Source of the DNA: Antedon mediterranea
Lineage: Eukaryota > Echinodermata > Crinoidea > Comatulida > Antedonidae
Length of the DNA: 64,000 nt
Direction: 5' to 3'
Assembly: GCF_964355755.1 (NCBI RefSeq)
Contig: NC_092675.1
Coordinates: 3,816,312 to 3,880,311 of the forward strand
The notes below the pieces were generated by a model. The model was not told where the DNA came from. It did no database searches and worked only from the letters and a program-made list of their open reading frames with translations. A program made the translations under genes and the position numbers. Positions 9,062-44,414 of the stretch are shown here, piece after piece (positions within the stretch are counted from its first letter, which is position 1; every line of letters begins with the position of its first letter).

Positions 9062-9235
9062 CTACCTTTTAAAGTCACGATTTTGAAGACGGAAGTTGAC
9101 AGTCATATCATTAAGGCTTTGTGAGCCAAAGCTGTTGGGGTCGTAAACAACACCAGGTTTGGGGTAGTGTCTCATCTCTGAATGGGCTCGGCCTTCACTG
9201 CTTCCTCGATGACCCTTGGAATTATGACCTGATTT
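9062..9235 (-). CDS. AGBL4: AGBL4 exon 12 (last)
   Basis: C-terminal tail with HRGSSEGRAHSEMRHYPKPG, then VVYDPNSFGSQSLNDMTVN and FKR before TAG at 9064-9062. Poorly conserved but in phase with exon 11 and preceded by tatatag. Confidence 0.85.
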   Translation of the reverse strand, partial: KSGHNSKGHRGSSEGRAHSEMRHYPKPGVVYDPNSFGSQSLNDMTVNFRLQNRDFKR

Positions 9236-42200: not shown

Positions 42201-44414
42201 GATAATGCCTAGACTGCATCAACAATTTATCTGTAATAATGTCCAAAACACAAGTTGAAATCTTTCACATGGGATTTGTCATTCTAGCACGTTGTAGATG
42301 CTAGCATGTTATTTGTATAGATTTCAATTCAAATTTCTGCTTTATATGCATTTCTATAAAACATAAATGTTGTATTGTTTTTGTATGTGGTAATGTTTGT
42401 ATAATATAGATATTAATAACAAAATGAGGTATTATTTTTAAAGAACAGGAAGAAAATCTGAATGACTCCTCCATATTTTGTTTAAAATCAATATTTTATT
42501 ATTTACAAAGTTATTTATTGTAGTAAAAATGCTTTTGGGTCATTTTTGTTAATAATCCAATGTTGACATTAAAAATATTTTAAAAGTTTGTTGTGCTCAC
42601 TCGCGCTCAAATAAGTGAGAAAGAAAATTATTACTAGATGCCTAAAAAGTACATCTTTTACCAATATGAATCCTAAATCGTCCACCAATTTGCATTCTGG
42701 CTTATTTGAATGGGTACCATCATGGGGGTAAATAAATATATGGTGAAAATGACCTGTTATTATATCTTTACTTTTTCCAAGCATGATCTAGATACGTGTA
42801 TGCTTCAGTCGAACGTAACATCCATCTTTCTATTTTTTTTCATATAGTGTAAATTTCTTTGTGAATGACTTGTTTGCTTTTTGCTGTGTGCTCAAGTTTG
42901 ACATATCCTTTCACACCTTGTAACACAGTGGAGTTTTTTTTTTATCCACCATTATAATTATCAAGTAGTGAAATCTATGACTTTATGTGTATACCCCCTT
43001 CTAGGTTGAATCAGCTTTCGAGTAAGATGTCGGGTATCATGGCAAAGCTCTTCCCTAAACAGTCGATGTGAGTATGACTGGTCAACGATAGTCCGGTTTT
43101 CGTGACAACCATATTCGTCTGTGTTCAATGTTGTCCTACCTAACCACAGTTTTGTGCTGGATTCTCCACTAACTCACTGACTAGCCAAAAAAAGACAATT
43201 CTCAATTATAAAAAAAACGTAAGAATAATCTTTCATAGACTAGTCCGTAGGATGGTTGGATGGTTTCAGCTTTTGTATTTTCTGTGATTTTTGGAAATTT
43301 CTTTTTTCTGTTTTCTCAACTTTTTGGGGTGAAAGGATATTTCAATACTGTTATATTTTAATTTTACATTCTTCTGTTTTAATGTTACTTTTTTATTCTG
43401 TTTTCAGTTTTATTGCTATAAGTCAGGAGAGGTTGCACAGTTAATTTAACTGAACATTTCTATTTTGTTTTAATAATTTGTTCTTTTTACATCAGTTACC
43501 ACTAATTTTCTTACTTTTATTTACTCTTTTTGGAATTTCATCAGAACTTGAGCTGGAAATTTACAAAATGAAATTTTACCCAAATTATTATTCTAAAAAA
43601 ATTTAAAAACAACCATATTGTGGATTTCCCCAACAAGCGTATTGTGGGCCACAAACTATATTATTATACAAATAATTACAATTAATTTTTCATGTTTTGC
43701 AATTTATATCCTGCTCATTCTTGATTTATTCCATATTGAGTTTTCATCTTTAACTGTTTCCATCTTTTCTAGATGATTTCGTGTGATTGCTGGTTTTCTG
43801 TTCTTCATTCAGTTTCAGATATTTTATTTTCTAATTTTTACATACATTTTTTTTTCTTGCACAATTTACCGAAGCAATTTGGTAACATTTGTTCATATTT
43901 GTAACTGCTTTGTTATTTTAACCATTTTGTATTGTGTTTCATTTGTAATGCTTGTGTTATTTGACAGTATTCCCTTTTGATGTTCTTAATATTTCCAAGA
44001 TATTTTTGGAATTAATAAACATCCTAATACTTATGTATCAATTGATCTTAAAGTCAGATGTGTTGACATTAGTGTTCTATTCTTTTGTAAAGGTATTCAC
44101 CAATGGGCAACGACGTGCTGTCGGCAATGAATTTGCAAGCGATGACAAACAACGGCAACGGTTGGGTTATATTTGTCTATAATCTGATGCAGGATACAGA
44201 GGAGCAACTGCTCTACCAGTTGTTTGGCCCCTTCGGAGCAATAACCAGCGTCAAAGTCGTTCGAGACTTTGCGTCGCAGAAGTGCAAAGGCTATGGATTC
44301 GTAACAATGACAAATTATGAAGAAGCTTTGAGCGCGATTGCACACCTAAATGGATATTCCTTAGGAGGACGCATTCTACAAGTCTCATTTAAAAACAACA
44401 AGACGAAAATGTAA
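27275..44414 (+). CDS. ELAVL: ELAV/Hu RNA-binding protein, complete (three RRMs)
   Basis: Binds U-rich and AU-rich elements in mRNA and controls stability, splicing and poly(A) choice; ELAV family members are typically neuronal. Exons 27275-27277, 30738-30939, 38305-38408, 40145-40298, 41745-42012, 43005-43067, 44093-44414 total 1116 nt, 371 codons plus TAA, against about 360-380 in vertebrates. RRM1: IIVNYL (33-38) and LGYGFVNY (72-79). RRM2: LYISGL (119-124) and RGVGFVRY (158-165). A hinge of about 100 residues follows. RRM3: VIFVYNL (290-296) and KGYGFVTM (330-337), ending SFKNNKTKM. Intron positions within RRM1 and RRM2 match my knowledge of vertebrate ELAVL genes. It equals the common ancestor of ELAVL1-4, not one paralogue. 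Start choice: see the exon 1 entry. Head-to-head with AGBL4. Confidence 0.96.
27278..30737 (+). other. ELAV intron 1 (3.5 kb)
   Basis: AT-rich with TAGGCCTA-type motifs around 28370-28570 and 29100. No repeat unit or exon was recognised on either strand. Confidence 0.6.
30738..30939 (+). CDS. ELAVL: ELAV exon 2 (RRM1, RNP2)
   Basis: Encodes the N-terminus and RNP2 in [20 protein letters not shown], then [16 protein letters not shown]. Acceptor tttgcag, donor CTG|gtatgt. Confidence 0.97.
30966..31045. mobile_element. MITE family A core fragment
   Basis: AAATGCCCAAATATGGTAGT, ATGACATCATC and CATATATGGGCACATTACAT are the MITE core, but both terminal repeats are missing. Confidence 0.6.
31060..31605. 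repeat. Tandem repeat, 76-84-bp unit, 7 copies, with poly(C) runs
   Basis: CATAAATAAATAAATTTGGA recurs at 31121, 31199, 31282, 31358, 31437, 31514 and (weakly) 31598, each preceded by CTTTGCTCCCCATACAATA. Two units contain pure C runs of 14 (31232-31245) and 15 (31304-31318). Confidence 0.87.
33843..34177. mobile_element. MITE family A copy with a second MITE (family B) nested inside
   Basis: Outer copy: TTAAGCTCTGTCTCAAATTA to AATAGTGTAGACAGAGCTTT. Inner insert about 33926-34076 starts CAGGGAAAAAGC and ends TTTTTCCCTG, flanked by GTGGT/GTGAT. The insert has a second copy in opposite orientation at 41448. Confidence 0.75.
38305..38408 (+). CDS. ELAVL: ELAV exon 3 (RRM1, RNP1)
   Basis: Encodes [20 protein letters not shown] and [14 protein letters not shown]. 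Acceptor ccacag, donor AAG|gtaggc, phase 0 at the end. Confidence 0.97.
38409..40144 (+). other. ELAV intron 3
   Basis: AT-rich. A SINE family 2-like scrap (TTTATAGAGCGCACATATTC, AAGGCGCTTG) sits at 39390-39425, and a CA-rich stretch at 39610-39670. No exon was seen. Confidence 0.55.
40145..40298 (+). CDS. ELAVL: ELAV exon 4 (RRM2, RNP2)
   Basis: Encodes [20 protein letters not shown], then [20 protein letters not shown] and [15 protein letters not shown] at the RRM1/RRM2 junction is an ELAV signature. Confidence 0.97.
40299..41744 (+). other. ELAV intron 4
   Basis: AT-rich. Contains a LINE-type 3' tail scrap (AATTTCTTCTTTGGAGATTA, about 40665-40720), a 64-bp direct repeat at 41103-41235 (AAAGTATGCATGTCTAATAA twice) and the family B MITE at 41448. 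Confidence 0.55.
41448..41618. mobile_element. MITE family B copy (reverse orientation)
   Basis: GGGGGAAAAATTTCATTTTA, TTTAGCAATTATTGCTAATC and TGCTACACAATTTTAGAAAT are the reverse complement of the insert at 33926-34076. The right end near 41618 is degraded. Confidence 0.68.
41745..42012 (+). CDS. ELAVL: ELAV exon 5 (RRM2, RNP1 and first part of hinge)
   Basis: Encodes [20 protein letters not shown], then [16 protein letters not shown] and a hinge with [19 protein letters not shown]. Donor ATC AG|gtatgc, phase 2. Confidence 0.96.
42013..43004 (+). other. ELAV intron 5
   Basis: AT-rich; no repeat or exon recognised. It precedes the short exon at 43005. Confidence 0.5.
43005..43067 (+). CDS. 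ELAVL: ELAV exon 6, short hinge exon (possible cassette)
   Basis: 63 nt, phase 2 at both borders, encoding [20 protein letters not shown]. Acceptor cttctag, donor AT|gtgagt. Leaving it out keeps the frame and joins the preceding ATC AG to G TAT TCA, giving TIRYSPMG, which matches the RFSPMG hinge of human HuR. The exon could be alternatively spliced in the protein hinge. Confidence 0.82.
43068..44092 (+). other. ELAV intron 6, strongly T-rich
   Basis: From 43270 to 44090 the plus strand is dominated by T-rich runs (TTTTCTGTTTTCTCAACTTT, TTTACTCTTTTTGG, TTTTTTTTTCTTGC). Such U-rich RNA is the kind of sequence ELAV proteins bind. No exon was seen. Confidence 0.55.
44093..44414 (+). CDS. ELAVL: ELAV last exon (RRM3)
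   Basis: Encodes [13 protein letters not shown], then [54 protein letters not shown] and SFKNNKTKM, with TAA at 44412-44414. RRM3 is encoded by one exon, as in vertebrate ELAVL genes. Confidence 0.97.

Follow-up and report, generated by a model that had tools for sequence, protein, structure and literature searches.

That long-range regulation can hold passenger or 'bystander' genes in place is an established model, and the excerpts of its two sources mention neither AGBL4 nor ELAVL4 (PMC2745767, PMC6906185). Local gene order can also be very old, since a survey of microsyntenic blocks of three or more genes inferred 256 new blocks for the bilaterian ancestor, compared with 45, 48 or 56 after genome shuffling (PMC8851819, excerpt). 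In human, AGBL4, BEND5, ELAVL4, DMRTA2 and FAF1 are linked at 1p33-p32.3 (PMC10685534; PMC10137185; excerpts), and in stickleback the order is Agbl4 - Bend5 - Elavl4, with Faf1 near Elavl4 (PMC10516590, excerpt). AGBL4 and ELAVL4 both carry obesity-linked variants (PMC4375971, excerpt). No account of an AGBL4-ELAV pair in invertebrates was found in the open-licence literature, and genome-wide tables may well include the pair. For the comparison with human, AGBL4 and ELAVL4 are taken to be divergent there, SPATA6, STIL, TTC39A, KTI12 and MAGOH to lie in the 1p33 neighbourhood too, and SPATA6|AGBL4 to be a human junction. The first-pass annotation had proposed that the human genes are neighbours at 1p33 in the same orientation as here; the linkage agrees with the reports above, and the same human orientation is assumed here.

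The pair described here lies in Antedon, in a window (the whole stretch of DNA analysed, 64 kb) at C6:3816312-3880311. The genome contains 354,431,138 bases in 18 contigs, and contig C6 has 31,695,111 of these, which is 8.9% (31.7 of 354.4 Mb); a COX1 search of the assembly gave no match. As shown in Table 1, both spliced models place a complete AGBL4 gene on the minus strand and a complete ELAV/Hu gene on the plus strand, adjacent and head to head, with no detected gene in between, although small genes could be missed. All four points had been claimed in the first-pass annotation and are borne out by the gene models and domain searches.

Table 1. Features of the window and genomic positions of the neighbour families
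Feature	Position	Strand	Remarks
AGBL4/CCP6-type cytosolic carboxypeptidase gene	9062..21912	-	spliced model, 511 aa, complete frame; ATG 21912, stop codon end 9062
AGBL4 coding exons, descending, first six	21912-21888, 21175-21050, 20501-20377, 19623-19529, 18783-18567, 17905-17776	-	
AGBL4 coding exons, descending, last six	12067-11953, 11321-11210, 10600-10448, 10160-9998, 9675-9575, 9235-9062	-	
Interval between start codons	21913..27274	.	no gene detected: coding-score scan, Pfam on four ORFs, Rfam
Minisatellite	22673..23909	.	25-bp unit, 49.2 copies, 97% matches; Tandem Repeats Finder
CpG-retaining stretch, candidate ELAV promoter/regulatory DNA	24000..27500	.	CpG observed/expected
ELAV/Hu gene	27275..44414	+	spliced model, 371 or 350 aa, stop codon end 44414
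ELAV exons	27275-27277 (putative), 30738-30939, 38305-38408, 40145-40298, 41745-42012, 43005-43067, 44093-44414	+	
MITE-like repeat, examples	10930-11080, 11720-11860, 20680-20810		
SPATA6	C6:0.19 Mb		only locus
DMA-motif (DMRT)	C6: 16.0 and 19.9 Mb		both matches
FAF1	C6:28.7 Mb (28.69)		only locus
STIL	C6:30.2 Mb (30.16)		only locus
TTC39	C6:31.4 Mb (31.36); C1:36.0 Mb		two loci, better score on C1
KTI12	C2		
MAGOH	C7		

The AGBL4 model consists of 12 exons with 11 of 11 introns GT-AG, and its first exon closes on a clear donor. Both Pfam domains of the predicted protein scored over cut-off, namely Peptidase_M14 (PF00246, 5.1e-21) and the CCP N-terminal domain PF18027 (Pepdidase_M14_N, 6.3e-10). 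A genome-wide Pfam M14 search returned 77 matches without the window's gene among them, evidently because its exons are short. When the protein itself was searched against the genome, 11 of the 17 matches were its own exons on C6, giving one close locus; this search and the ELAV search described below score the best candidates only, and copy numbers refer to the matches listed. The best solved relative was CCP5, CCP6 being absent from the six distinct solved sequences listed. CCP5 identity was ruled out for the window gene, because a separate locus on C11 matches solved CCP5 (4.7e-42 over 91 residues). That locus is one of four other CCP loci in the genome, which are 30-62% identical to the window protein (six matches) and carry DLHGH or DFHGH in the catalytic stretch, as against DIHAHS in the window protein; the remaining three loci are presumably of CCP1 and CCP2/3 types. 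By identity and catalytic stretch, the window gene differs in type from the other CCPs in this genome. CCP6 is described as the shortest CCP, with the N-terminal and M14 carboxypeptidase domains and little else (PMC9867282, excerpt), and the window protein likewise has these two domains only, in 511 aa. Its domain content and its differences from the other CCPs assign the predicted protein to the CCP6/AGBL4 type. The gene is predicted to encode a tubulin/protein deglutamylase of CCP6 type.

The ELAV protein, of a family of neuronal RNA-binding proteins, contains three RRM stretches in Pfam, two in tandem and the third after a hinge, which is the ELAV/Hu arrangement. It scored 462.5 bits with the NCBIfam model ELAV_HUD_SF (TIGR01661; cut-off 279.1), and its best solved relatives were HuC, HuD and ELAV-like 1. 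Sex-lethal identity was rejected, the corresponding NCBIfam model scoring 229.7 and thus below its cut-off of 486.2. In the genome search, 6 of 22 matches were the gene's own exons, leaving one close locus among the matches listed; the other 16, located elsewhere in the genome, cover part of the query and do not exceed 46% identity, so they were rejected as retrocopies or extra copies. The gene has six exons and one more of 63 nt at 43005-43067 (+), which has good splice sites and lies in the hinge before RRM3. Skipping this exon keeps the frame, and therefore two isoforms are predicted, of 371 aa with it and 350 aa without.

The distance between the genes depends on where ELAV translation begins. 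Certain ELAV coding starts in the exon at 30738, and therefore the certain coding starts of the two genes are about 8.8 kb apart. The frame of this exon is already open ahead of its first ATG (30744), as would fit a short coding exon further upstream, and splice signals lead us to infer such an exon of one codon (ATG|GTAAGT) at 27275. It belongs to a set of 7 ATG-donor combinations (5 different ATGs) in 23.9-30.7 kb, and CpG retention around 27275 supports this putative exon at the sequence level. Provided that it is right, the ATG-to-ATG distance is 5,363 bases, and the 5.4 kb between start codons given in the first-pass annotation stands on the same condition; its start coordinates, 21913 and 27274, are replaced by ATGs at 21912 and 27275.

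In the interval, strongly coding-like frames were found to be derived from the minisatellite, which is open in several frames, up to 436 codons. Four interval ORFs of 84-90 aa at 25.4-26.3 kb gave no Pfam family match at E<=0.01, and Rfam gave no match at gathering score in the whole 64-kb window. CpG observed/expected was then ranked in 1507 windows of 3.3 kb across 154 kb around this one locus. The ratio was 0.559 on average and 0.99 at 24000-27299 (rank fraction 0.009), and in the 500 bases centred on ELAV exon 1 it reached 1.57 (rank fraction 0.009). Another 3.3-kb stretch, in the left flank, equals the ELAV-upstream score within the 154 kb. The AGBL4 start had no such CpG signal, with rank fractions of 0.11-0.16. 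CpG retention of this kind is a mark of promoter or unmethylated DNA and not of an element serving both genes.

To the left of AGBL4 and tail to tail with it lies an RNA polymerase large-subunit-like gene (window 1-6650, +; RNA_pol_Rpb1_5, 7.3e-11), which we take to be POLR1A, and beyond this gene there is an anoctamin gene (4.7e-32). A DUF1258 match on a POLR1A-like exon was discarded, as it reached 16.0 bits, below the cut-off of 33.1. To the right of ELAV, the coding-score scan of about 70 kb returned low-complexity or repeat-like frames only, although small exons could be missed, and ORFs of at least 75 aa in the 50 kb beyond the window's right end were likewise not gene-like. The same 70 kb, from 44.4 kb to 50 kb past the window, are rich in simple repeats. 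Within the window, TAGGCCTA is strongly over-represented, occurring 18 times where 20 first-order Markov sequences gave 0.5 on average; abundance of this word may be an echinoderm trait. Many copies of a short MITE-like interspersed element were also observed, whose ends are inverted (AAAGCTCTGTCTACACTATCAAAC...) and which contains a TGCCCAAATATGGTAGTGATA unit internally.

Eight families from the human neighbourhood were then located in the genome, namely SPATA6, DMA-type DMRT, FAF1, TTC39, STIL, KTI12, MAGOH and BEN. The first two had already been found on C6 when the remaining six were included, and all eight are reported. The results showed that five of the eight have a locus on C6, at distances of 3.65 to 27.5 Mb from the AGBL4-ELAV pair. 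BEN-domain matches numbered 12 in the genome and none of them was on C6. Chances were calculated for independent loci, an assumption that the DMA genes may violate. Five or more families on C6 have a chance of 2.7e-4 among the seven that possess one or two loci and of 2.7e-3 among eight when the 12-locus BEN family is counted, and three or more among the five families with a single locus have a chance of 6.2e-3. Five of eight families with a C6 locus suggested that AGBL4 and ELAV share an old chromosome. One of four human junctions is kept here (AGBL4|ELAVL4), while SPATA6|AGBL4, ELAVL4|DMRTA2 and DMRTA2|FAF1 are lost. Since five families lie on C6 far from the pair and three do not, the chromosome appears conserved and its order scrambled, with the AGBL4-ELAV junction kept. 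A stretch of 2.7 Mb on C6 contains FAF1, STIL and one TTC39 locus, and this cluster may be another remnant of the 1p33 neighbourhood.

These results are best read, with a probability of about 0.5, as an ancestral AGBL4-ELAV pair kept by descent, most likely through ELAV regulatory DNA, with AGBL4 as its passenger. We infer that the adjacency was inherited from an ancestor common to Antedon and vertebrates, in which the two genes would already have been divergent neighbours, the other genes of the ancestral chromosome having been shuffled since. Control DNA of ELAV would lie in the interval of 5 kb and probably extend into the AGBL4 gene. A break between the genes would then part ELAV from its control elements, which is why the junction would be kept, with AGBL4 as a passenger like those of genomic regulatory blocks. 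Divergent and complete genes, one close locus for each, linkage in human and fish, and the neighbour families on C6 speak for this reading, and CpG retention upstream of ELAV exon 1 speaks for its regulatory part. The gene-poor 70 kb or so past ELAV would suit a gene under extended regulatory control. However, KTI12, MAGOH and the 12 BEN matches are off C6, the best TTC39 match is on C1, and the CpG signal is confined to the ELAV side of one locus and is equalled by the left-flank stretch. A regulatory cause for retention of the junction is our conjecture, and regulatory DNA common to both genes, which the first-pass annotation had suggested, is plausible.

A serious competitor, whose chances we place somewhat short of even, is that the pair is ancestral and held by no selection, having survived by luck, aided by closeness and rare breaks. 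With the content of C6 conserved and its order scrambled, survival of one in four tested junctions would be unremarkable. However, human and fish show this linkage too although the other three tested junctions were lost here, and a regulatory landscape would fit the CpG-retaining DNA and the scarcity of genes beside ELAV. We favour the passenger model over such neutral survival.

Joint neuronal drive from a shared bidirectional promoter region, with co-expression keeping the genes head to head, would account for their divergent orientation. A classical bidirectional promoter spans about 1 kb, whereas the inferred start codons here are 5,363 bases apart, and the 1.2-kb minisatellite lies between them; the distance makes this explanation improbable. 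CpG retention at the ELAV side only and, in the excerpt on fish, the position of Bend5 between the two genes (PMC10516590) argue against it as well. Separate origin of the adjacency here and in vertebrates, which could be entertained because the analysis covered one animal genome and the pair drew attention only in hindsight, is very improbable given the C6 loci of five of eight neighbour families, and common descent is much likelier than coincidence because two random points on C6 fall within 5.4 kb of each other with a probability of only 3.4e-4, orientation not yet required.

The preferred reading, an ancestral pair held by ELAV regulatory DNA, can be extended to a stronger form that we consider tentative and on the whole unlikely. 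AGBL4-ELAV would be a regulatory block as old as the ancestor shared with vertebrates, in which neuronal ELAV enhancers in the interval and in AGBL4 introns pin the genes together, and only the ELAVL4 copy would have kept the block after the vertebrate genome duplications. If this were true, the pair would flag ancient pan-neuronal control DNA, locatable by its position even though its sequence has changed. Pan-neuronal genes with known control DNA comparable between phyla are few, and the surviving junction points to a small region for such a positional search, 24.0-27.5 kb together with the AGBL4 introns.

Compared with human 1p33, the locus is alike in that AGBL4 stands next to an ELAV gene and that the DMRTA2 and FAF1 families are on the same chromosome as the pair in both. 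The two differ in that one close ELAV locus was found here, whereas human has four ELAVL genes; that no BEN-domain match lies near the pair; that the DMA, FAF1, SPATA6, STIL and TTC39 loci are 3.65-27.5 Mb off; and that the left neighbour is RNA polymerase I large-subunit-like and not a 1p33 gene. What is new is that these five neighbour families share C6 with the pair, though megabases away. Like the genomic regulatory blocks described in the excerpted sources (PMC2745767, PMC6906185), the locus joins a developmental gene to a linked unrelated neighbour. Such blocks are characterised by conserved non-coding elements across target and passenger gene, whereas this locus is known from its gene positions. 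The first-pass annotation had called conservation of this kind uncommon, which is overstated, as ancient blocks are a known class (PMC8851819, excerpt). As in those metazoan microsyntenic blocks, old local order is kept while the surroundings are scrambled, although the survey, in the part available, counts three or more genes and here there is a pair (PMC8851819). Ancient microsynteny is already known as a class, and the AGBL4-ELAV pair is a new instance of it and a clean example of conserved chromosome content and scrambled order with a single adjacency kept.
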